NCBI RefSeq assembly: GCF_010093815.1 | Contig: NW_022985560.1 | Location: 927,501-991,500 of the forward strand | Source: Pseudovirgaria hyperparasitica | Lineage: Eukaryota; Ascomycota; Dothideomycetes; Acrospermales; Acrospermaceae | DNA: 64,000 bases | Direction: 5' to 3' | In this document: piece after piece, positions 46,425 to 64,000 of the stretch | Layout of the letters: each line of letters begins with the position of its first letter | Numbering within the stretch: the stretch's first letter is position 1 | Program-made: the position numbers and the translations under genes | Notes under the pieces: generated by a model | Databases searched by the model: none | What the model was told of the DNA's origin: nothing | Seen by the model: only the letters and a program-made list of their open reading frames with translations

Positions 46425-49400
46425 CGTTATAAACTAATGATTGTATATGCTGGGGCGAGTGGGATGCCGATATAGGCCAGGGTGGCTCACAATGGACCAG
46501 GAACTGGAGGAGACGTGGGTGTTGTACCCTGGGTGCATCAACTTAATCTAGTGGACTCTGGCCAGGGTTTGCGACAAAAACAGGCGGACGTGGTTGTAGA
46601 CGTGTAAGTGAGTGACAGTGTTGGACATGAAGGTGCAGCGACGACTAGATTGCTATGAAATTCCCTCGTTAGTATATTGCTCAATCCCTTCATTGCTCTC
46701 AACCCTGGTAAAGGTAGCAACGGTAGCTCGTGGGCTCTATTTCTGGAGCAAAGCCTGGACGAAAAAATGAAACTCTGGGGAGATGCTGTGCGGCGTCCCC
46801 AGACAAGACAAAGGTAAATGAGGTACAAGGGATCCGTCGGTTGGCAATGGCAGTTGTATATGTACGAAGAAACAAAACATACCTTTGACTAGCAGATCCC
46901 GAAGCAGTAAAGCACGAGAAAAGGAGAAAGAGCCCAACCTGACGAGGATGAACACGGCGCGACGACACAGTATATCTGTCAACGGAACAAATGTGCCAAG
47001 CAAGGTTGTTGTGTATGTTGCGCGGCGCAGTTTGGTGCAACAGTCAATATAGCAGCGGGTCGAGGTGGATGCAATTGTCAATTGAATGCAATCCGGGGTA
47101 TGACGCGTTATGACAGGTGAACACAAACCTGCACGAGGAACAAGGCGGGATAAAGAAGGGCTTCTGGTGAATCGAGAGATGACGCCCACAGGTGGTAAAG
47201 ACAGTGGTATACAGAAGATGAAGAGCAGACAGAGGGGATAATATGCAAGCGGGAAGTGACAGAATAGGAATAACGGGTCAGTCTCTTGGTCGATGAAGCT
47301 ACGGGTGAGCCGCGCGACCGTCACACACAGACCAGAGGTTGACTTTTTCACGACAGTGGTGTACACTAGCAGACGCGGTTGATGGACAGGGTATGAGGGG
47401 GGGAGGGTCATCCATCGTGCGTGTGCAAGCTGGAGCAGCGCACATTATTCACAACACGCATGACAGAGACCATGCCTCAATGAGGGAAAGTGTATAACAC
47501 GCCAGGGACGAGAATGGAATAGAAAGGGGATCCTGGACCCAAGAATCAAGAGGCGCAAGCAGACAAGCATGGGACAAGCATGTCAACAGCATGGGGATGG
47601 TCCAACGGGAAGGCCAAAGCTTCAGGATAGTCAAGTTATTAGGCTCTTGTAAGGATTGGGCTGATTCGGGACGGTCGAGGCCCCTAGATGGTGAGTGAGT
47701 AGCAGGCATTGGGGACTGAAGGCTGGATCAGACTATGTAGTATCCTGGTGTTGATAAATTGGTGTAACAAAAGAAGCAGCAGTCTTTCCAGCTTTGAGGG
47801 TGATGATATGGGTATGTATGTATGTGTGCCTGGGGTCCAAGCACTACAATATCTCCTCGGACGGGTCGAGAAAAGCAGCAAAAAGTGTATGAAGGGGAAA
47901 AGGGACGGGCAAGGGGTAGGGGTAGGGGAAGGGGGCGAAGGGAAGTGGGAAAGCTGCATGCCGACGCCATTACCCGACGTGGCGGTCCAGTCCCAAGTGA
48001 GTGCACGCTAGGCCCACGCCAACATCCATGGAGGCCATAGCCAGTCAGCCAGGTACATTTCCAAGATGAGCGTTAGCAGCAACGGCTTTTCAACGCTCAC
48101 CCATAAAGAATACTCTAGGAAGAATAGCAGTAATAATAGTATTATCCGAACCAGTGTTGGACTCGTGTCACTATGTAGGCGTGGGACTTTTAGCCTTTTA
48201 CATTGATTATTGTGGCAACATGGAGAATAGTAATAATACGGGGCACACGGCACGCGGCACATATCACATATGCATATCTTCTACCCGGCAGCTGTACAGA
48301 GTACATGCACTGGCAACTGGCAGGATGCGAGTGCAGATGCAGACGCAGACGCAGTCCGGTCCAGTCCGCAAGCAGAAAAAGCCCAAGACTCAAGACACAA
48401 TATCCAAGACTCAAGGAATTTAACGTTACAAACTGTGCGGAGACTTTATGCACAGAAAACTCCCCTCGGTCACCGCGTTCCACTGCAAACTCTGAAGCTT
48501 CGTCTTACCGCTCTTCCTGTCGAGCCCTGATGCCTACTCACCGTTACGAACATTCTCCTGGCCCTGCAGACAATAGTCATCGCACCCTCGTCGAATATGA
48601 TTTGCAAAGCATCTCCAACACTCACTCCACTCTTGTTCTCCGGCCGCCAGGAACAGGAGATTGCTCGAGGCCGTGCGGCGCTGCGCTTGTGATTGCCGCG
48701 ATGTCTGATCGATTTTTGGCTCTGTGGCGGCGCTGACCTTCTCCATTTAGGAATCGTCCTGTTCTGTCATGTTTCAACTTTCACAAAAGCAAACTATCGT
48801 GCCATATTAAGACTTGAAACGCGACTTTCACGTAGCTTTTCGGGCGGCTTGATCGCCACATCCATCCGGCCTGACTCGGCCCTGAAAACCTGAAGCCTCT
48901 CCAGTCTCCACGATAGAAAGTCCTCTCCACTGTTGGTGGTGAGTTTGTACCTGCATCTATTCTGCATCTGCATCTGCGTCTGCGTCTGTGCGTTTGCCGA
49001 AGTGGGAGTCTGTGTATCCACCAGATGACGGATAACGATGCAATCAATGTAGCTTATACTTACCATAGCATGCCCAGCACGATACGAGGCGGTTCGTCGC
49101 TACAAGACGTTTGACACATGGACGGCCTACCTTTCTGAAGCCGACTTTGGTATCCCTAGCCAAAGGTGTGTGGAGCAACAGTGTGCGCAACGTGCATATC
49201 GGCTTGCCCTGGCCATCACTATCATCCCGCGGCCGTGGTCATATTCTTCCCAAGCAGACGGACCAATGGCTGCACATGCAATTTTTATCCTCAATAACCT
49301 GAATCTCGTCTTTGAACGGCGACGTCGCCTAGCTTCATATTTTGCCAACAAGCTTAATTGTCGGGGCCTCAGCTGCTTGACTAGTACTCTACTCAAGGCC

Positions 49401-52400
49401 GTCATCATGGTAGAGGTTTAGGTCACCACCCTCTCCTTGCCATCAAGACAACATATCAACGCGACGCGGACGCAATACTGCTGGTAAAGTGCCTGGGTTC
49501 TCCGATCTGGGAACGCCGGCTCCGAAACCTTTTCTTGGTAGCCTTAGGTATTAGTCTTGCTCCTCCCGTTCAATCCCTGGCATTTCCACCAGATATTCTC
49601 ACAGCTCTCCCGCTCGACCATGACTTGGGAGGCTTAAAAGAAGTCTTAAGCAGGGTTTGCCATCCCATCGATGCCCAACTTCATCACGCGTCATCCTGAT
49701 TTCGTCGTACTATCGTCGCCGCTTTGCTTGACAGCAACGCTCTTCTTTGGAAGACTCGCGACTCAGAGACCCTTGCCTGAGAAGAACTTAAACTTTCCAT
49801 ATCCGCCCGTCACCATGTGAGTGCTTCGCCACGCACAACAACAGCATGTTCGAGACTACAGGCTATTGGCTCACAGCTGACCCTCGTTTTTATTGTCAAC
49901 AGCGTCTCCCTGCCAGAATTGTGTGTTTTCATATGATTATCGAAATGGTTCCATGTTACTAGATACTCATCGTGACTTTACCACTAGCTTGACTCGCGAA
50001 TCGTTCGCCTTACCCTGTATGCTAGCCGTAAACAGGAACAATTGTTCCACTTCGGGCCTCATGAGTCGCCTTATGGCTCGGCATGCGAGAGCGATACCGA
50101 TAGGTACGAATCTTGTATGTATGTGCACGGTAAGCAGCACTGTGCAGGAATTAACTTTAAATTTTAGTCAACCAACACATTCTCATCCGATATCAGTTAT
50201 TTATGCAGCGCTCGCAGGCCTTGAAAGCTGCTGGGTAATAAATACATGCTCGTATGATGGCATCAACAACTCGCTACCTATCAGAGGCCATAGTTCACTT
50301 CAGCCCACCCTATAAGGATTCTGATGTACCGACATCACGCCGCTGTGGGACCTAGAGTTCCGGTGGACTCGTCCTCGAAAGTAGGCACCATGCTGACAGG
50401 AACAAGCAAAGAAATCGTGCAATTGACGCAACATGTAAAAGTTCTACTGGCTGAAGCTGTCAGCTGACTTGTGTGTCCTTCATCCCACGGCCTCGTATCT
50501 CGCGTTGCATCAATAAGCCGTTGCAGAGGTGTGGGCTGTATACGCGTTTTTCTAACGCTTCCCTGCCGTGCAACAATGCGTGGGGACGGATGGTCTCCCC
50601 GGCTTCTTCTTGACTCCTCTTCCCGTGTTCGCCCCGCCTACAGTGCTCTATCTACACGAAGCCTCACTTTTGACGGTGAACGACAAATTACAACGTCCAA
50701 CAAATATTGGAGCAAAAGTCAGGGATATCGCCAGCAGCTCTTCAGTTTGGCAATCTGTTTTCACAGGCTACGGCTTCGACGAATGCATGGCAAACCTGCA
50801 TGCCCGCCACTCTTGCAGCAAAATGATTTGACGATCGCTTCAATCTTGTCGTTCGAGACTACGACTCTATCGAGGTGAAGTATCGTAGGCAGGTAGCTTG
50901 CAAGGCAGCATCTATTGATCACGGTTCATCTATTCGTCGGAGACGCTGACTGGATTCCGAACCCGCAAGGGAAGAGCCGTACCTTAATCCCGCGAGATTT
51001 TTCAGCTGAAGCTTCGCCAATCACACTGCGTTTCGGCCATCAACAGTCAGCGCTGTTGTTCCCTCAAACTGCCTGTGGGCCTTGACAGGGCAAGACACTT
51101 TAACCTATGACGTTACTCGTTTCCGCTGATAGAAGAATCAAATGGCTTGTTACCCCCATGGTATCGTGCAGACACGAATCCTTTTGCAGCGGTCAGCAAT
51201 TGGCAATTGTAGTATGCAGGGGCAGCAAATTGCGCAAGGAACTGCAGTAGTAGCTGAAGATCCTAATGCTGATCTCTTATAGGAATCAATCGCATTCGGC
51301 AAGTGTCCGACATCGAACTGACATGTCCACAACGGTATTGTCCTCTCGTCTATAGGATTGCGCCAAAACTGGTTTACGGAAGTTGGGAGCTGCAAGTGCA
51401 ACATGCCCGTCGGCCGTACCACTCTTTATCGTAGGGCTCGATGCACATCACGATTTACTTGTATTATGTCGGTTGCGAAAGAGGACCTCTACCACCGCAA
51501 ATTAGGCATGAAATGGACGTGTCGCTAATCTTGTTCGTAGATTGTTGGTCCTGGTAGTCGCATCCAAACTTCCTAGCAACGTTGGTGTCGCTGTACTGAC
51601 ACGCAAGCAACAACACGAATAAATCGACTTGTCGTCTCACCTTATTGCAATGTCGTATGTGAACGAATGAGAAAGCAGCTCTTAAACAATATTGCCGGGA
51701 ACGCTATCGACCTTGGGAATTGGACGAAGACACCTCGATGGGCATTGCTGCACATGTCGGCACAGACATCGATGCATGCAGCAAGCAGCCTTCCCGACGT
51801 TATGTATTCCCATCAGCAGCCCCCCGGGCTAACAAACAACTCTCCTATCGCTCCACAGGGCAGTCGTCATACTGCTCTACTGCAGCATGCAAGATGAGCT
51901 GAGGCCCTGCAGGCGGTCTCGCAAAAGGCCTCGCTTGAAAACTCAACACGACTGTGCAGAGTGTTTGGATGATGTGGCGCTGTGGCTGCCTCTAAAATTA
52001 TCTCTGAGTGACAGTCAGAGACCTTCGACGAGGTATATTCTTATCGCAACTCGCCCTCATGATTTACACGTGGTCGCTCCTTGCGCCATACATAGTACTA
52101 TCAGTATATATATATGACACCCGACGCGATTGCACAGACATATGGCATGTGGCCTTTGGACTAAAATACCAAATACCTCGACATTGACCAACTGAGTGCC
52201 TATTAATCTTCTCATGGTTGCCTTCCCCGCGTGCGAAGGCGAGAACAGAACGATTTGACCAATGCCATTCACAGTGGCCGTCATCTCACATGAAAAATCT
52301 TACTGCAAGTTAACCCCGCATTCTCCTCTTAGCTCCTGAAACTTAGCATATACGTACCTCTGCATGAATATTATTCGACCATTCGAAGCATGTTTAACTG

Positions 52401-55298
52401 TTTCGTCTGTGCTATTGGACAGCTGGAAGCCCGATGATTGTGGGCAGATTTCGCGAGGGTTGTTGCTGGTGATCACTGCATCTTACAGATTCATTCGCAG
52501 TACACCACGGCAGTAGCTGCAGATTGGCTTCAGATTCGACACGACCAAGACTATTGCTCGTCGCTCCTCTGTCTCTCCCTCTTCAACTCTATCTCAGAAT
52601 GAGATCCATTCAGCATCCAGCCAGTCTCCGAATACCCCAATGCTATGAGCATCACGTATATTAGATCCACACCCAACACCTAGAATGTCGGAACTACCAT
52701 AGGCTTCCACAAAGCAGCAGAGGTCGTCAAGCCCTCTCATAATATCGCGTCATATTGGTCTAGTCGCTCCATGAAGATAATGATTACAATACAGAATCCA
52801 AGGCCCAAGAAGTTCGACTCGACATCGTCGTGCCCAAAACGACTTGGCGGCATTGCCGACGCCACGTTTCACGCCATGCATGTGTAAGTAAGTGTATGTA
52901 TCTTCTGTCATCATACCAGCTTGATCACCACCATCTGATCTGTCGCCGAAAGCGAGGTGCGTCTTTCTCCGTCTGGTACCTGCCGACAGACCTACTAATT
53001 ACCCAGCTATTACCCAACAACTAGTCCCACGCCATCTCTACGCCACCATATTTTCAAATCTCTCAGAAGGGGGAGAAACAGTCTAGCAGCCGCTAGCGCG
53101 TTTCAGATTTCTTAGTCTCCGGACTAGCCTCTCTCGGCAGGTCTAGCTCTCGTGCTCTTTTCATTATTAGTTCCCGTCATTATTAGCTCCAAATGTTAGG
53201 TTCGCGAGAGCCCCGTTGTCGGCCGAATAAACAACCACTCTCCGTCGCTCTACTTACATACACAGTCTATACCAACATGTTGCATTCCAGAACAGCCCTC
53301 ATACCAATTGTTCACCTCAGAGCTTCGTTGCGTGCTAGGTGTTTTCATGCCGATCATTCCCGTGGGATTGTTGCCAGGGTTGATGATATATATCGATACG
53401 ACTGCGATGCCATGCATTCCACGTCAGCGCTGTTTCATTACCTAGTCACGCCATCGCTCTGCACAGTATATGGGTTGAGAATAGCGCCGCTGCTATTATA
53501 GTTCGAGCTGTGATAGCGCCATTCTTATGCGTACTCACTGCTGCTGCTGCTGTGTGCTTGTATATCATCCCTTTCCGTCGTCCGCACGGATATGCGTGAC
53601 ACATACTTTGAGTGTTTTCACGCGGGCACGTGGAGCGAGCAATTAGTATTAGAGCCGCTCCGGAGGGAGGATCACCCTGAGTGATCTTGCGTTACTTTGC
53701 GGCTCCTCTTAAGCAATTTATGAATACTTGAATAGAATAGAACAGGTATGATCTGTGTCGGTCCATATACAATTGATCCGGGCTTGGAATGTGGAGCAAC
53801 AAAATGTTCTGGTTCAGCTCTATATTCTGATTATGAACTCGTTTGGGATTTCTTGGCCTTTGGCCCTCCTTCTAAGTTGAGTTGGAACATATAGAAGAGG
53901 TATAACTCATTGAACTGAAGGCAAGCTCTATATATCTGAATATCTCTAGATTTTATGTGTTGAAGTTGGAGATCCTTGAACGTTGTCCACGGATAGATGA
54001 TTGTATTAGGTGTATATCCGTTTGATCATTATATGATATACCTAATCTTCTCTATCTTCTCTATCTTCTCTATCTTCTCTATCTTCTCTATCTTCTCTAT
54101 CTTCTCTATCTTCTCTATCTTCTCTATCTTCTCTATCTTCTCTAGGAATCTCCTCTACTATACTAACATATAACTACCCAAGTAGGACCAGAAGAACCTC
54201 TAAAGCTAGTATGATAGTATATGATAGAAAAATATAGTCTACTTTTGTAACTAAGATTCATAAATAAAGACTACGCATTTACCCATGTAGATTAATCTGA
54301 ATGTAATTTATAACCAGAACTCATAGTCATGAAATGCATTTTCGCGAGGTTCGAGTTAAATTAGCTCAATCCAACGGATGCTTAACATTTAGATCCATTT
54401 GCTCGTTCGAAATTGTGGGCATGGTAGAATACCGGATCCTTTGGTATCCGACCGATGACATACCACGGACATGAGTTCCTATGAGGTCGGGGCAGATGAA
54501 AGGCATTAGGAGAATCTGCAGTCTCGAAAGAAGCGGGTCAAGGGATAAATGGGCTGGCGGTGAGCTTTCACAAGTCCACATGACCATCTTAAGGCAAAAA
54601 AGGACCGGGCATGACAGGAATCAGACAAACAATACGCACGCATGAGGTATTCTGGTGGCGTCGATAAGCAGTCCGATGGTGGGTTTGCAGTTGATATGCG
54701 TTAAAGTGGGGTTGACTGGGTGGCACCACATACCTTGGCAAGAAGGTGAATAAGCTGTTCGTAGCATGCAAGTGTCCGACTTAGCATAGAACAGAACAGG
54801 GCGAATTATGGAGATTGAATCGCGAGGCCTTGAGCAAGCAGGCTCTATTTAGGCAGAAGTGGGTTCGACACTCTTCGTTTCTATACGCTCATAGTAGGCA
54901 CCGCCGGGCGAAATTAACAGCTTGGTGGTCGTTAGAGGAATACTGAAGGAAGCAGTGCCTTAGGAGATATATCGGTGTGAGACTATAGGGGCGGCGTCAC
55001 TGTTCGAACAAACATGTCGACACGTCATACGTCCTATAGTAGTCAGCGGAACAGTATGCATTATGCATGTAGGTCATCAACCAATACACACAGTGCATTT
55101 TTCATTTCGATCTGTGTCAGTGCCTTGATTATTATTCTCCAAACAGAGTGCTATCACTCAAGTACAATACAGTCTTTTATCCTCTTTGCAAGTCAAAAAA
55201 GCAACACGACCAAGCCATCAAGATCCGGCTCAAATCTAAACTTATTCTCATTTTTGCTAAAAGAAGATCAAAAAAAAACTTTTCAACACTTATTTACC
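46425..55298. other. Gene desert of nearly 9 kb
   Basis: No frame with coding character longer than about 180 codons, and none with a recognisable motif. The first kilobase likely contains the long 5' leader and promoter of the CRIB gene. Some intron-like pieces occur (for example GTGAGT at about 49818 with CAACAG at about 49903), but the flanking sequence does not make a protein. The segment at 53.7-54.3 kb is AT-rich. No tRNA, rRNA or transposon was recognised. Decayed genes or an untranslated RNA cannot be ruled out. Confidence 0.5.
54046..54144. repeat. (TCTTCTCTA)11 satellite
   Basis: Eleven perfect head-to-tail copies of a 9-bp unit, with no drift between copies, in AT-rich DNA just left of the methyltransferase gene. 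Perfect copies suggest recent expansion. Confidence 0.95.
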
Positions 55299-56144
55299 AT
55301 GGCCAACGCTCGGCTAGATCTCGACACTGATCAGCTTGCGCAGAATTATGAGGAAATAAACAAGATCTATCAGTTCCAGTCTGGTAAGATGCTAGTTGAT
55401 AAACTTGGAGACCTAACGGGTCTAAGAATCCTGGACCTGGGCTGTGGAACAGGAACTCTGACCATTCACTTTGCGAAGCTCGTTGGGCCTACTGGAAGTG
55501 TAAGTGGCACTGAGCCGCTGGCAAAAAGGGTCGCTCTTGGGAACGAGACAATTGCGGCTGAAAACAAGAAGCGAAAGGATGAGAGCAAGCACGAACTACA
55601 TGTTTCTCTTGCAGTGGGCACCGCGGAGAATGCAGTGGGTATGTTCCCTGCTGGGAGCTTTGACATTATTTGCATGAACTCCGTGTTCCACTGGGTTCAG
55701 GATCAAGCCGCTGCTCTCGCAGGGATCCGTAAGCTCTTGAACGAGAGCGGACGCCTTGCTATCTGCGGCAGCTCAAAGGAGCATTACCATCCTCAATCAG
55801 AGAAGAATAGGGTACTGGCAGGAGAGCGATATCGTGAGCATGTTCCTGGAGGTATTGCTCGTCTTTCCACAAGAAGCACTCTTCATTCACTCCTCCAGGA
55901 CGCTAATCTACTGAGCCGAACGATTGATCTTGTTCCTTACGAGGTTACTTTTCCAAATTACGACAAACTTATGGAATTTGAGATGGCTAGTACTTTCGGA
56001 AACTTCCTCGACTTCAGATTTCTGCCTGAAAACCTGAGAAAGCCTGCAGAGCTCGAGGTGATTGAGGCCTACCGCGCTCTCGACAAGGGTGCAGGGATTC
56101 CGATGACTGTTACCTTGTTAATGACCATTGCGAAGAAGTTTTAA
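55299..56144 (+). CDS. Class I SAM-dependent methyltransferase
   Basis: A single exon of 281 residues. I start at the ATG in TTTACCATGGCC (MANARLDLDTDQLAQ); the in-frame upstream sequence is AT-rich and unlike protein. The SAM-binding motif I LDLGCGTG (residues 45-52), an acidic-to-Glu TEPL after strand 2, SFDIICMNSVFHW (motif II) and LLNESGRLAI (motif III) are all in place, as in the UbiE/Methyltransf_11 type. It should transfer a methyl group from SAM to a small molecule. The C-terminal cap (VPYEVTFPNYDKLMEFEMAS) resembles small-molecule methyltransferases of secondary metabolism. It is the first gene of the putative cluster, in the same direction as the opine-dehydrogenase-like gene. Confidence 0.9.
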   Translation: MANARLDLDTDQLAQNYEEINKIYQFQSGKMLVDKLGDLTGLRILDLGCGTGTLTIHFAKLVGPTGSVSGTEPLAKRVALGNETIAAENKKRKDESKHELHVSLAVGTAENAVGMFPAGSFDIICMNSVFHWVQDQAAALAGIRKLLNESGRLAICGSSKEHYHPQSEKNRVLAGERYREHVPGGIARLSTRSTLHSLLQDANLLSRTIDLVPYEVTFPNYDKLMEFEMASTFGNFLDFRFLPENLRKPAELEVIEAYRALDKGAGIPMTVTLLMTIAKKF

Positions 56145-57035: not shown

Positions 57036-58320
57036 ATGGTCAGTGCACGTCATATTCATGTTTGGTCTTATCCTTGTTAAAACCACGCAGGAAAGTCATA
57101 CTATCGGAGTCTACGGTGGTGGCGCGGTCACATTCAGATTGATAGACCACTTTGCTAGTCAGGGTCGTCACGTGTACTTCACCGCACACAGTGACCACAA
57201 TAGCAACATTATGAAAGTCCAAAGGGACGGTTGCTTCACTGTAAAGCGATATTGTTCAACCGATGAGAACAAGTGGGAAGAGTATGTCGAGCATAGAGTT
57301 GCTAGTCTAGATGGACCACCTCTTGTTCAAAGCGCTCTGTCTCCTAAGATCTGGGCGACGACCGACCTTCGTAAATTGGTTCAGCAAACTTGCGACATAT
57401 ACATCTCGATCGTTTCCATAGGCGATCAATCTGAGAACAGCCACAAAGATGTCATTACACACTTTCTTGGGCTGGACATGGACCTTAGTCATTTGGTACT
57501 CACAGCTGTCAATGCCCACGCATTTACTGTATTAGCTGAGCAGATGGGACTATTGGAGCGGGTCAAGATGATTATTGATCTTCCTGTTGGCCCTTATGCA
57601 ACCAGGAATGAACCGAACTCCTCTCCTCTTCATAATATCATGAAGGGTAAGAAGATTTGGTTACCCGCATCATACACGGTCTCCACGCGCATCAATGACA
57701 ACATCGCACAACTTGTGGACCAGGGACATCAAGCTACTATTGGTATGCTCAAGATGGACATCATGCCTTTGTATAATGCTATCGATGCCTTTTTCAATCA
57801 CATGAACCCTGTTTTCCATGTTCCCATAGCCTACGCCAACATGTCCAGGATCGACAGCGGAGAATCCTGGACGTTCTACTTGAATGGCTTGACCGAAAGT
57901 GTGAAAAAGCAGATTCAAGCTTTCGACACAGATCGGCGGGCTGTTCTCAAGGCCCTGAAGTTCACTTCATCAACATTGACGACAACAGATTACTGTAACA
58001 AAGCTTACGGCGCTAATTACACGGGAGAGGATGACTTTGGGAAACGTACACCCGTCCACAACCGAACTTCTGGAGTGCCAACTAGTATGAACAAATACAG
58101 ATACACGCTTGAGGATGGAAGGTGGTGCATGAGAGCAGCTGTTTTTGCAGAAGCGATTGGCGTCGAAGTTCTTACCATCAAAAGCTACGCCCAGCAGACC
58201 ATAAATTTGTTAGGGGAAGAAATGGTTGAAAGGAAAGATCAAATCATGACCGACTTCGGTATCAAGGGCTTGACTCAGTTCGAGGTACTTAGAAAGTATG
58301 GCAGGCATCCTGATAGATAG
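57036..58320 (+). CDS. Octopine/opine dehydrogenase-like oxidoreductase
   Basis: Opine dehydrogenases reduce the imine formed between an amino acid and a keto acid, using NAD(P)H. The N-terminal Rossmann motif is SHTIGVYGGGAVTFRLIDHF. The C-terminal helical domain (Octopine_DH type) shows MNPVFHVPIAYANMSRIDSG with the Asn and His expected near the active site, WTFYLNGLTESVKKQIQAFD followed by TDRRAVLKAL, and a later RYTLEDGRWCMRAAVFAEAI block followed by GVEVLTIKS. Length (410) is normal. Start choice: the frame is open upstream but without ATG. My preferred model has a first exon ending right after ATG (57036-57038), a 52-bp intron (57039-57090) and then ESHTIGVYGGG. The alternative is an intronless start at the ATG at 57058. 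It lies between the methyltransferase and, beyond the GH18-like gene, the CDPS candidate. The substrate is unknown. Confidence 0.85.
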
Positions 58321-58760: not shown

Positions 58761-60371
58761 TCATTCGGTCCTTCTATTCTTGATGTTGTCCTTGTCCGAC
58801 AGGGGGTAATTGATAGTATTATCAGTACGGTCTAGCCCCTCCAAACCTGAACCCCCAAGTGATTTTGCAACCTATAATAGTCAGCATAGCCGAGTAAGCT
58901 TCTAGCTTTTTATAATTAGGCGTACCTGAGTGATCAGGCTCTTGTCTCCAACTGCGTCTGCAGTGACATCCCAGAATGCCACACCTCCTAGCCTGCTCTC
59001 GCGTACGAAATCTAATTTAGAGCTTATAGATTTGGCATTCTCATAGGACACCATCATCTGGCGGGTAGCATCATACGAGTATGCTGACTTAGTGGTGTCG
59101 TCCCACTCCTGTGAGGCACCTACCAATGGCATGTCCCGGCATGGATAGATGGTCTGCAGCCAATCATTCTCGAAAGGGCCAAATGAAGACCCCGGACCTT
59201 CGGTGTTATAGAAGCCGCGCCCATATAGCCCGATTCCGAGGTTTATCTTGTGCGGAGAAATTTTAACCACTTTAGAGTAATAATCGATTGCGTGGGCCAC
59301 CACGAAAGGAGTTGCAGAGCTCTGAAGAGTCGAGGGGTATAGGGGTGCGTTATGAATTGCAACGCTGGAATCGTCTGGCTTAGGGGCAGCACCATTGAAC
59401 TGGTACCTATCTTCGATTAGAACTTTTCCTCAGCGTAAGGGGAGACATACGCCATAAGAGTCCAGTAGTCAACATATTGATCCATTTCAGTTATCTTCAG
59501 ATGTTTGTAGTTCTCTTCCTCTGAGGAAGGCATAAGCTTATTACAAGTATTTCACAAAGATGTACACACTTGGTGGAGCTACCACAGAGAGGGTGAGTTT
59601 GTTTGTATCAGCTTTGTGTGAATAGTCGTCGATAGCCTAATCAGTAGAATTAGAGCAGAACCTGAGACTGCGAAGTTTGATTACGTACCTGGCGAAACTC
59701 CTTTACTAACTCGACGTAGTTGGCCGCATCCACCGGGCCTTATAAATATTAGCAAATTATTAGAGCTGCATTGGATAGTATAGACAACCATCCGGAAATA
59801 CCCATGCTAGGTCGATTCCTAACGCATTGTCAAAGCTAGTTATCAGATACCTCTCTTGCTGTACATACCATCCCATCCAAAGTTGTACATACAATGCATA
59901 CAAGTTTGGACAAACTTAGTGCGTCTCCCTGGATTGGCCACTGCTTCTGACCAGTTACCAGAGAGTCGCCAGCCTCCAATTGATATGATCGCTTTAAGGT
60001 GACGATACTTGCTCTTCAGGTCGACAATCTGCTTAACGTTACCAAACACGTTGTTGCCGTCCTGCTCAGAATCATCGCCCGGGAAGATTCGGTCGACATC
60101 CGCATACTTGTCATAGTGGTCACTTGAATTGGGTGAATAGGTTTGCACGCAGAAATGATCTTGGTGCACATACCACTGTCCATCATTCTGAATAAGAGCA
60201 AAGCCGTACACAAGATGTGTCAGGTTTTGAACATTCGTATCCGAAGGGACAAAAGCTTTGTCTGAGTAGCTAGCCTAGGATTTGTTAGAAACGTTGGTAG
60301 GTACACTCGATCAGTATTAGCTTTACCCAACTCGGATAATACCCGATGACTCTAGACTTCTCGGCGTCCAT
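58761..60371 (-). CDS. GH18 chitinase-like protein with altered active site
   Basis: Eight exons (60371-60327, 60274-59869, 59818-59789, 59738-59689, 59636-59570, 59520-59451, 59406-58926, 58871-58761) joined over seven introns of 44-54 bp give 419 residues in one frame. Family 18 signs: SRVIGYYPSW at the start, LTHLVYGFALI, AIISIGGW, the strand-4 active-site region NFGWDGIDLAWVFP, VDYWTLMAYQFNG, NLGIGLYGRGF, and the C-terminal GGVAFWDVTADA and YPLSDKDNIKN. The catalytic motif is normally DGxDxDWE; here the second Asp is Ala155 and the proton-donor Glu is Val157, so hydrolysis is not expected. Perhaps it is a chitin- or sugar-binding lectin-like protein. No signal peptide is seen at this first ATG; in-frame SGFSVAALIVPSSS just upstream hints that an earlier start may exist. 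A possible TATA element lies near 60465. Confidence 0.9.
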
Positions 60372-62073
60372 ACTTGACGAAGGAACTATTAAAGCAGCTA
60401 CTGAAAAGCCTGACGTAATCTGTATGTTGCTTTACCTATGTGATGATTGATGAAGGGGAGGTATAGTATATCTATTTACAAATGGTACACTCTCAGTGTG
60501 ACTTGCACTTCATGAACTATGGAAGTCATGAGCTAGCTGCCTCATAAATTGGATCGATCTGACAATGTCTGTGCTTTACGTCATGTAATTGATGCAGTGC
60601 ACTCACATCCTATATATTTACTAAGTGTTGTCATGTATGCGATGTACTCGATACCTTCATTAGGCAGGTAGCAATACTCTCCGCATATATGTGCTGCCGG
60701 ATCTATAGATCGACAATACAGCGGTCCGCGGCATATGCACGAGTCGCAACATATGGGAGCGGTGCAACGTATGAATCGACAAGTTCGGAGTCCGGTGCCT
60801 GTTCTGCATATCGGGCCAGACCAGTCTATAGATCAGCACCGGGCACTCTATGTGGGAATACTCACATAGGTCTAACTTAGTCTGTCCATAGCTAGATACG
60901 AAATACTGTAGATATCTATAAGATACTGTGGGTACCGACATACTGTGGATACCTATCTTACACTGTGGATGCCTACGAAACCTTGCGAATACTTACCAGA
61001 CATTGTGGATACTTACCAGACATTGTGGATACTTACAAGACATTGTGGATCCTTACTAGACATCATTGAGACCTACTAGACATAATGGATACCAACTAGA
61101 CATAGTGGATACTTCCTAGATATAGTGGATACTCAAATCATAAGGTGGATACTTAAGAGACATTGCATGAGAGCTGAAGCTATACAACCTATAGATGGTC
61201 GCAGTTGACATACATGCGGATATACGTATGATACAATCACATAACATGAGGACCCATACGAGATGCTATACATGATCTTGGTGTTACGTTCAGTTTGGAT
61301 TCCTTGCATGCTAATCTAGGATTGTAGACTTCCATGTGCATAAGCTACATAAGATGACTTTTGTAGCGGTGAAAGAGACGGGGAGAATTTGCTTCAGTAG
61401 ACCAGGGTCGTGGAAGATGCCGACGTAGCCATCGCTGTCTTCAATTGGCGCCGAATCAATCGGTCCCTCAGGACTCAAGCATTAGCCTCTCCACCTCCCG
61501 ATATCTAGCTCCTGCAGTTACGCCTATACCTACTATGTCAGATGATGCTTCTAGATGGTGGATACCAGTTCTCGGCTTTTTTGCAGCAGCCTGACGCACC
61601 AGATACCAGCAGTATATCCTAATACAGACTCTATAGCTCGAACTTAGGGAGGAGCTGGGTCTCAATCATGCCCAACCAGCGACCTTGTGCCAACCTACTC
61701 CGATGTGTACAAAGCTATAGGGACAAGTATTGTTGGATCAGGCTCAGCCGCTAGGTGCATCCATAGTGTACACTTTCCTTGTTCGTTGGCTTCTAGCTGT
61801 CGCTAGCTTTGGGTCCCGCACTTGCAATGTCACAATAAATGTTCATCTTTGTCACACATTATAGGCACATGAACAGGACAAAATACGTGTAACTTTAGAA
61901 AAATACCATTGATTCGATGGTGAGTGATAGAATTGTAACTTGACTGATTGAACGTTCACTAGATCTAGTATATAGCTGCATTTCTGGAAGAAGAGATTGT
62001 AAAATGTATAATGTAGTTTTTTAACATACTCCAGACTGACAGATAAGACTGATATACCACTAAATATCAGTCC
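60372..62073. other. Intergenic with minisatellite
   Basis: No gene supported. It contains the GH18-like promoter on the left, the 20-bp tandem repeat described separately, and at about 61.4-61.7 kb two short minus-strand open stretches without start or motif that may be relics of a decayed gene or transposon. The right end is the AT-rich 3' flank of the CDPS gene. Confidence 0.5.
60896..61170. repeat. Degenerate 20-bp minisatellite
   Basis: From 60951 to 61150 ten units stay in perfect 20-bp register with the consensus ACTTACTAGACATTGTGGAT. Further degenerate copies extend about 55 bp to the left and one to the right. Neighbouring copies near 60991-61050 are almost identical while the outer ones have drifted, the usual pattern of unequal slippage in the centre. 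Confidence 0.9.
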
Positions 62074-62951
62074 TCATGCAAGCTTATCGAAAAACACACG
62101 TATTAACTGAGCATCCAAAGCTCCAGGCAACAGTGATCGCACATCTGCCATGACCTCCTCGTCTGCCCGGTAGGCTTTGATCACGTTCTCGATCGGTGAG
62201 AAATATGTTGGCTTGGCTCCGTGAGTGGCCGAAACTGCCTTCTGGCAAAACACAGGGTGGTAGAGGATTGAATGCTGAGTACCATGGAGCTCAAGCCCGA
62301 CTAGCTGCACAGGAAGCTCTTCAAGTGTATAGCGGGTGAAATTCTCGAGCCGGCGATCAGTCAATGTGGCTTGGCGAAGACGGGACTGTATGTAATATGT
62401 TGAGCTTTTTTCCAGCTCATCCTCGAATCGACTACGGAATCGAACAACAGCATCTAACAATTTGTGGTACGAGTCGGTCGTGATGTCTCCCCAGCGACAA
62501 ATGTGAATAGTGCAGGACGTTGAGTTGTTGGATAGTTGCCAGTTTTTAATGAAGGTCTGTAGATGGAGAACCATTTCGTTTCCAGCTGCCATAGCCAACT
62601 TTGCAGCCCGGGAGTCACTCATACCATGAGAGATGGTTTGCTCGTACTTGTGTATCTCATCGCACACTAAGATAACGACTTTCCTGTGCCTGACCGTGAG
62701 AACATCCAATAGTTTGGCCACATTGCTTTCATCTAGAAGAGGATTATTCCCCATCGACATTGTGACAACGCAGCTGTCCTCTGGATTGGAGGTGTTGATG
62801 GGATAAGGTTCATCGATGGGATACATGATTCCTGTAGCAAATTGCGTGCAAGTGAAAGAATGTTTGAACAATCAAAGATACCTGACGGAGTGGAGCTGAA
62901 GTCGAACAGTGGTATCCAAGAATATTGGCTGGTGCGGCCTCCATGATGCAT
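62074..62951 (-). CDS. Cyclodipeptide synthase (CDPS) candidate, NYH type
   Basis: Two exons (62951-62882 and 62831-62074, 50-bp intron with GTATCT donor) give 275 residues. CDPSs take two aminoacyl-tRNAs and form a cyclic dipeptide through an acyl-serine enzyme. After a ~43-residue extension the protein has VVTMSMGNNP with Ser49 and Asn52, an IHKYEQTISHGMSDSRAAKL helix ending AMAAGNEM, the basic helices RFRSRFEDELEK and QSRLRQATLTDRRLENF, then Y191-T-L-E-E195-L-P and ILY214-H215. In the bacterial enzyme AlbC the key residues are Ser37, Asn40, Tyr178, Glu182, Tyr202 and His203; here every one is present with spacing within one residue (Ser to Tyr 142 against 141). The basic helices match the tRNA-binding face. 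Eukaryotic CDPSs are few; arginine-using ones are known in fungi. The substrates cannot be told from sequence. Confidence 0.85.
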
Positions 62952-63606
62952 GGTGAGCGGACTTATCTATACAAACCATAAGCTTTCTCACGACGCAATT
63001 ATATGACATCTCTGCTAGAGCTGATCTGTATACTTGCGTCTGAATCCAGCATTGTGATCGGAAGACGATATTCCCTTGACGGTAAAATGATATCAGCGGT
63101 ATGCAGTTTTGCATGCATGGAGGTTGTTTACGTGCGTTACAGTGCTTCGTTGGGACTCAGGTGATCACTTAGGCCACTCCAATGCATGAAAGTGATGCAT
63201 GAGTGACATAAGTACCTTCAGACGAAAGAGACCACGCACACGGTGGCGATACATGTATATGGACAAGTGCATGAAATAATGCTGCAGCGATGCGCTGGAC
63301 TGAGAAGCGCTTTCATGACTGCTGCATCATGATTATCTTGATCTGCATATCGATCGACAATATCAAAACTGCCAGTGACACAAACGCATCAAAAACGTCA
63401 CTCAGCTGCAAAGCTGCAGCAAAGTGTCACTAAAGTACGCATAATACAACGTATCACTGAACAGAAAGCCTACATGATTGCGTATAAAACGACAGTCGAA
63501 TCGTCGGTATTTCACTCACAAAACTTATCCACATCTTTGACTTCAATCCGAGATACCAGTAAGAAAGCCACCCTACGAATTTATTCCTATCAACGCCCAC
63601 TTGAAA
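62952..63606. other. Divergent promoter of CDPS and secreted protein
   Basis: No gene seen. TATA-like ATTATATGA lies about 50 bp before the CDPS start on the minus strand. There are several TGCATGA/GCATGCATG words near 63110 and 63180-63215, and a GCTGCAAAGCTGCAGC inverted repeat at about 63405-63420, which could be regulator sites. The plus side ends in an AAC-rich leader. Confidence 0.45.
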
Positions 63607-64000
63607 ATGCAGCTCTTTCGCGCCCTACTCCTTTCAGCTTCGGTATCAGCTCTTTCAACACGGCTTGAAAATCGAATCGGCGCATCTGAATTCATTACAG
63701 ACCTCGAAACCTACTATATCCGCGCGTTTACCCTCGATTTGTCCCTAGATCTACTCAATGGGACTGATGGAGGAGCTGCTAGAGTCACCGATGCCATGCT
63801 GGGTCTCAAGGAGGCCCGCCAAAAGCTTGAGGTAGATGCAAACTTGATGACTCCACTATCAGGGGCCGACAGCCGTGCAGTGACCAAGGAACTTGTGTCT
63901 CACGATTCAATTGACACTAGCTATATTGGCAAAGTCAAAGATGGGGCAAGTTTACACTTTCATAACAGGCTAGATTCTAACCTATCGGGTAGAAAGATGA
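63607..64000 (+). CDS. Secreted protein, cut by the right edge
   Basis: The frame opens with MQLFRALLLSASVSALS, a signal peptide, followed by an all-helical region (SEFITDLETYYIRAFTLDLS, then LDLLNGT; DAMLGLKEARQKLEVDANLM). Alternating helices without Cys are reminiscent of HsbA-type surface proteins such as the two genes at 19-23 kb, but I cannot prove membership. A possible 47-bp intron near 63949-63995 has a good TTCTAACC branch and a GGTAG end but a weak GTTTAC donor. The gene continues beyond the window. Its start is divergent from the CDPS gene, so it may be co-expressed. Confidence 0.7.
   Translation, partial: MQLFRALLLSASVSALSTRLENRIGASEFITDLETYYIRAFTLDLSLDLLNGTDGGAARVTDAMLGLKEARQKLEVDANLMTPLSGADSRAVTKELVSHDSIDTSYIGKVKDGASLHFHNRLDSNLSGRKM

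Follow-up and report, generated by a model that had tools for sequence, protein, structure and literature searches.

The gene and its neighbourhood

The window, a stretch of 64,000 nucleotides, carries on its minus strand an open reading frame (62826 to 62074) of 250 codons without internal stops. Homology marks it as a real gene that encodes a homologue of the cyclodipeptide synthases (CDPSs). The model that we prefer on the basis of homology, profiles, and predicted fold is intron-less, and consists of 250 codons and a stop (62074..62826, minus strand) beginning with the ATG at 62826-62824. A sequence-only reading of this DNA had proposed a 50-bp intron, and in the resulting protein, whose residue numbering is used here, the same ATG is residue 26. 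A GT...AG 50-mer is present at 62881-62832 and would form the putative intron (62832..62881, minus strand), but the possible exon 1 that precedes it (62882..62951, minus strand; 70 bases, or 23 codons and one base) lacks homology support. The minus-strand frame is itself open throughout for 265 codons, from 62871 to 62074. By a loose rule, comparable layouts of an ATG-started exon and a GT-AG intron occur by chance at 487 of 1082 AG sites on both strands of 46450-54980, a region taken as non-coding. In codon usage exon 1 is unremarkable: of 173 chance ATG-started open 69-mers, drawn from three stretches taken as non-coding, 22% reach its score or surpass it, although the test is weak since the score of exon 2 is uneven (-2.2 to 4.7). 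The match to FoCDPS, a CDPS of solved structure presumably from Fusarium oxysporum to judge by its name, spans residues 41-273 and thus exon 2 alone, and none of the catalytic residues relies on the intron. With the start at 62826, Ser49 becomes residue 24, near the position of Ser26 in the prokaryotic enzyme ParcuCDPS. Given that exon 1 is without homology and that this start yields an N-terminus typical of the family, an intron is possible but not needed.

Less than 8 kb from the CDPS gene lie genes for a class I SAM methyltransferase (55299..56144, plus strand) and an opine (octopine/nopaline) dehydrogenase-like protein (57058..58320, plus strand; PF02317, E 2.7e-21), the former directly upstream of the latter on the same strand. 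Each is a possible tailoring enzyme and a candidate link to the CDPS; the sole solved match of the dehydrogenase-like protein is 1bg6 (E 5.4e-6). A chitinase-like GH18 gene (58902..60371, minus strand, 5' end approximate), spread over several frames and presumably containing introns, is probably an unrelated neighbour. Between it and the CDPS gene is a degenerate 20-bp tandem repeat of 9.5 copies (60944-61133), and at 63601-64000 on the plus strand begins a possible secreted protein with a hydrophobic N-terminus and no Pfam match, whose gene is cut by the window end. In six-frame translation, the 8.5 kb or so from 46450 to 54980 lacks Pfam matches with E values of 0.1 or lower; this region includes, at 54045-54144, a perfect 9-bp tandem repeat made up of 11 copies of ATCTTCTCT.

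The gene families in the window point to a fungal host. Bacterial contamination was considered and rejected because the window also contains matches to HsbA, which we take to be a fungal family, and to DUF1996 and ArgJ. A match to a GATA-like zinc finger elsewhere in the window, just under its cut-off, was also counted against contamination.

Membership in the CDPS family

In a phmmer search against the PDB, the window protein matched FoCDPS (31ee) with an E value of 6.6e-52, and the best prokaryotic matches by sequence were structures of ParcuCDPS (E 5.4e-9 to 7.4e-8). Family profiles also recognized the protein, TIGR04539 with 42.8 bits (E 4.3e-11) and the Pfam CDPS profile PF16715 with 24.8 bits (E 2.1e-5), both scores falling just below the curated cut-offs of 45 and 27, respectively. 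A 233-residue stretch of FoCDPS is likewise under the TIGR04539 cut-off (40.4 versus 45 bits). Because this cut-off misses both the window protein and a CDPS of solved structure, it does not decide membership, and scores lying just under curated cut-offs mean that annotation easily misses members of this branch. The homology is far beyond chance and bears out the earlier proposal of a CDPS in eukaryotic, probably fungal, DNA.

Relatives were sought by scans of genome contigs, which found none with a first query and 4 loci with a second. In the two phyla of those 4 loci, 7 genomes out of 379 and 18 out of 371 contain matches to the CDPS family at E up to 0.001; for two classes, whose searches overlap with those of the phyla, the figures are 15 out of 378 and 9 out of 383. 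Scans of viral contigs and a tblastn search of plasmids for CDPS relatives led nowhere. The prokaryotic comparison set comprises 33 rows from two phyla only, two pieces of one broken gene having been dropped. In two of the prokaryotic homologues (L035 and L036), the CDPS domain is part of an open frame, 465 and 478 residues long respectively, and is possibly fused to another domain.

Identity to the window protein is 39% for FoCDPS (over the domain) and 13-23% for the prokaryotic rows. In a tree of 26 of 29 rows, the window protein and FoCDPS form a pair with support of 100/100, and this pair is nested in a clade (97/92) that holds 13 of the 26 rows, 11 of them prokaryotic. Ten of these 11 prokaryotic rows have Tyr-Pro at the positions equivalent to AlbC 202 and 203, one (L024) has Tyr-Tyr, and none has Tyr-His.

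A structural model of the 250-residue protein was built with AlphaFold2 without templates, using an alignment with 21 of 27 loci. Since this alignment consisted of CDPS relatives, the model (pLDDT 85.1, pTM 0.84) is not independent of the homology. It adopts the HUP/Rossmann fold of CDPSs that the sequence-only reading had anticipated. Foldseek returned 51 matches at E up to 0.001 among PDB entries to April 2026, of which the best 50 of 51 are all CDPSs, of both XYP and NYH types, with TMq up to 0.67; AlbC (3oqv) was matched with E 2.2e-7, and 31ee was absent from the matches. Fold and alignment together would place Ser49, Tyr191, and Glu195 in one pocket.

The same reading had described two Arg/Lys-rich helices at the site of tRNA binding. 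Stretches of 12 residues with 4 Lys/Arg do occur, the densest starting at 63, 147, 154, 173, and 174, but the modelled helices contain at most 4 Lys/Arg and carry a net charge of at most +1, where the NYH subfamily is marked by a basic helix alpha4. Arginines are found at 154, 156, 158, 174, 176, 183, and 184, three of which (156, 174, and 184) are also Arg in FoCDPS. In Nbra-CDPS, an XYP enzyme, strands beta2 and beta7 touch the tRNA stem through basic residues, and two Arg of the helix alpha6 region contact A76 (PMC13062777). Some basic residues of the window protein may touch tRNA.

Active-site residues and the register at position 202

In AlbC, the aminoacyl and later the dipeptidyl group is bound to Ser37 and is held and activated by Tyr178 and Glu182. 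A proton is relayed by Tyr202 during ring closure, and a Tyr202-to-Phe mutant piles up dipeptidyl-enzyme (PMC5935735). Tyr202 has been called strictly conserved, and the relay has been proposed to be universal for CDPSs (PMC5935735). All six residues singled out in the sequence-only reading, Ser49, Asn52, Tyr191, Glu195, Tyr214, and His215, are encoded in the open reading frame. Alignment equates Ser49 (62755..62757, minus strand, as are all codons given here) with the nucleophile Ser37, Tyr191 (62329..62331) with Tyr178, and Glu195 (62317..62319) with Glu182, in agreement with that reading, and also equates Asp81 (62659..62661) with ParcuCDPS Asp58, which hydrogen-bonds to the nucleophile. 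Counted without gaps from Ser49, Asn52 (62746..62748) falls at AlbC position 40; MAFFT places a one-residue gap there.

Active-site columns were read from a 35-row alignment of the 33 prokaryotic rows, the window protein, and FoCDPS. Among the prokaryotic rows, the Ser37 column has 31 Ser and 2 Cys, the Asp58 column 31 Asp, 1 Asn, and 1 Gly, the Tyr178 column 27 Tyr and 6 Phe, and the Glu182 column 31 Glu, 1 Asp, and 1 Gln; the window protein and FoCDPS share Tyr and Glu in the last two columns, and at the Ser37 column the window protein has Ser and FoCDPS Cys. The two prokaryotic Cys rows are L012 and L023, homologues in which, as in FoCDPS, Cys replaces the catalytic Ser. At the Tyr202 column, 31 of the 33 prokaryotic rows from the two phyla have Tyr, L030 has a gap, and L039 has Asp. 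The window protein and FoCDPS have His there, followed in both cases by Pro.

This assignment depends on the alignment register. Against 12 XYP-like relatives, hhalign (probability 99.3, E 1.8e-20) places His215-Pro216 (62254..62259) on Tyr202-Pro203 with no gap from Glu195 to His215, and the alignments with XYP-like rows likewise set His215-Pro216 on Tyr-Pro, or on Tyr-Tyr in L024. Pro216 thereby matches the XYP signature (X40-Y202-P203), with His215 at the Tyr202 position, as in FoCDPS. Modelled strand 212-218 carries His215-Pro216. The sequence-only reading had instead taken Tyr214 (62260..62262) and His215 as Tyr202 and His203, matching AlbC in order and spacing. The spacing from Glu182 to Tyr202 in AlbC is 20, whereas that from Glu195 is 19 to Tyr214 and 20 to His215, and only a weaker alignment, with NYH-type relatives, yields the register that had been claimed.

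That register describes an enzyme of the NYH signature (N40-Y202-H203), in which Asn52, Tyr214, and His215 are Asn40, Tyr202, and His203, one residue has been deleted before the strand, and the tyrosine relay is the standard one. The three residues do spell NYH, and hhalign with 8 NYH-like relatives sets Tyr214-His215 on Tyr-His after a one-residue gap, but with an E value of 3.6e-9 as against 1.8e-20. The count from Glu to Tyr varies from 18 to 21 among 10 His-type rows, a variation that speaks for this register; His215-Pro216, however, lies at a count of 20, as do the equivalent residues in FoCDPS and in 10 of the 16 prokaryotic Pro-type rows (the other 6 having 17-19 or 22). FoCDPS has Phe at the Tyr214 position and retains His-Pro, and Phe for Tyr202 is the very change that piles up dipeptidyl-enzyme in AlbC (PMC5935735). 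The tree groups the window protein with XYP-like rows, and Foldseek TMq values are 0.55-0.67 for XYP structures (5ocd, Nbra, ParcuCDPS, 5mlp, and 6y4b) versus 0.51-0.57 for NYH structures (AlbC, YvmC, Rv2275, and B. thermoamylovorans), a small difference between overlapping groups. An NYH-type window protein is therefore unlikely. The stronger alignment, the agreement with the tree, and the Phe and His-Pro of FoCDPS favour the His215 register; position 202 is probably His in the window protein, as in FoCDPS, and the register that pairs Tyr214-His215 with Tyr202-His203 is probably shifted by one residue. The catalytic set described as complete is thus probably not so in the usual sense, because His occupies the position of Tyr202.

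One sentence in the text on ParcuCDPS names Tyr189 as the equivalent of Tyr202 (PMC7613923). We reject this equivalence because the published P1 positions, 33, 35, 65, 67, 119, 185, 186, and 200 (PMC5816076), place Tyr189 at AlbC 200. The ParcuCDPS motif GAYAWELY then makes Tyr191 of that enzyme the residue at 202 and His215 its counterpart in the window protein, and the ParcuCDPS Tyr189 mutants consequently say nothing about Tyr202. The P1-pocket residues of the window protein are Val45, Thr47, Leu78, Cys80, Val198, Gln199, and Leu213, which have Leu-Cys in common with FPLCWISE, a motif given for Tyr, and Leu in common with FGLAWSLL, one given for Phe (PMC5816076). These residues weakly predict that the first amino acid is hydrophobic or aromatic.

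Proposed catalysis and comparison with known enzymes

We consider it likely that the window protein is a CDPS of a little-studied fungal branch of the XYP type in which His215 would have taken over the relay role of Tyr202. By homology, the first aminoacyl group would pass from its tRNA to Ser49, where Asp81, Tyr191, and Glu195 would hold and activate it. A second aminoacyl-tRNA would then extend the aminoacyl-enzyme to a dipeptidyl-enzyme, which would cyclise to a diketopiperazine. His215, in a His-Pro pair that replaces Tyr-Pro, may act as the proton relay in ring closure, the task of Tyr202 in other CDPSs; this role and the identity of the product are both inference.

Since the tyrosine relay has been called universal, His at this position could also mean that cyclisation has been lost, a point that weighs against our preferred explanation. 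The protein would then form the acyl-enzyme and stall, or release a linear dipeptidyl product that a different enzyme would take up, possibly the opine dehydrogenase nearby. Histidine is itself able to shuttle protons, which counts against such a loss. The probable His at position 202, the dipeptidyl-enzyme that accumulates in the AlbC mutant (PMC5935735), the opine dehydrogenase-like gene 3.8 kb away, and two unsuccessful attempts to express fungal XYP-type CDPSs in E. coli (PMC5816076) are all consistent with a non-cyclising enzyme. Proximity is nevertheless the sole link to the dehydrogenase, simpler causes have been offered for inactive XYP enzymes, namely that the tRNAs of E. coli do not suit them or that their start codons were wrongly chosen (PMC5816076), and we regard this alternative as quite improbable. 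That the gene is a relic, no longer expressed or functional, would accord with the nearby 46450-54980 region devoid of Pfam matches, but the 250 codons are open, the active-site Ser, Asp, Tyr, and Glu are intact, and so is the C-terminal region common to FoCDPS, which makes a relic very unlikely.

Proximity makes a shared pathway of the CDPS, the opine dehydrogenase, and the methyltransferase no more than a lead. In Trichoderma harzianum, a cluster that contains a PF02317 protein and a methyltransferase is reported to be needed for colonizing plants (PMC12855858); the word cyclodipeptide is absent from that paper, and a literature search for CDPSs combined with opine dehydrogenases found no paper. 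It would be a long shot that the fungal branch has both exchanged the supposedly universal Tyr202 relay for His and, in this window, joins with the dehydrogenase and the methyltransferase in producing a novel type of metabolite, either a dipeptide or a diketopiperazine, that is methylated, opine-like, and possibly metal-binding.

Several known groups of enzymes can be set beside the window protein. The arginine-containing RCDPSs, against which the sequence-only reading had proposed to check the protein and which we take to include AvaA, offer one comparison. They are, as the window protein would be, tRNA-dependent diketopiperazine enzymes of fungi (PMC11055893), but PMC13062777 reports no sequence homology between them and NYH or XYP CDPSs; the XYP homology of the window protein makes its membership among them unlikely. 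AlbC and the other NYH CDPSs share the fold and the equivalents of Ser37, Tyr178, and Glu182 with the window protein, which differs from them in probably having Pro at 203 and His at 202. ParcuCDPS, an XYP enzyme of Parcubacteria RAAC4_OD1_1 (PDB 7QB8 and mutants, among them 7qat, E174L) that makes cyclo(His-Pro) and cyclo(His-Glu), has the equivalent Ser, Asp58, Tyr167, and Glu171, yet is only 18-20% identical and has Tyr191 where the window protein has His215. Its Tyr189 corresponds to Leu213, and Leu78 and Val198 stand in place of its Tyr55 and Glu174, two residues with an apparent part in binding His (PMC7613923). In ParcuCDPS Asp58 is required, and some activity is left in a Ser26-to-Cys mutant (PMC7613923), which would fit the Cys of FoCDPS.

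Fungal XYP-type CDPSs had been described from sequence by 2018, and members such as Fusarium fujikuroi FFUJ_14129 resemble the window protein in being fungal and of the XYP subfamily (PMC5816076); FFUJ_14129 is listed as a CDPS on Chr12 of F. fujikuroi, among accessory-chromosome genes (PMC8102738). The literature searched, as far as its text was accessible, reports no product of a fungal XYP-type CDPS, and its open-access part makes no mention of His at position 202. Already known, then, are fungal XYP-type CDPSs by sequence and the structure of FoCDPS (PDB 31ee and 31eg). FoCDPS has Cys, natural or engineered, at the Ser49 position and Glu at the Asn52 position, and resembles the window protein in its 39% identity over the domain, its similar longer C-terminal part, and the His-Pro that replaces Tyr-Pro. 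The probable departure to His is common to two related enzymes, and may reflect either a second way of closing the ring or the absence of ring closure in these CDPSs.
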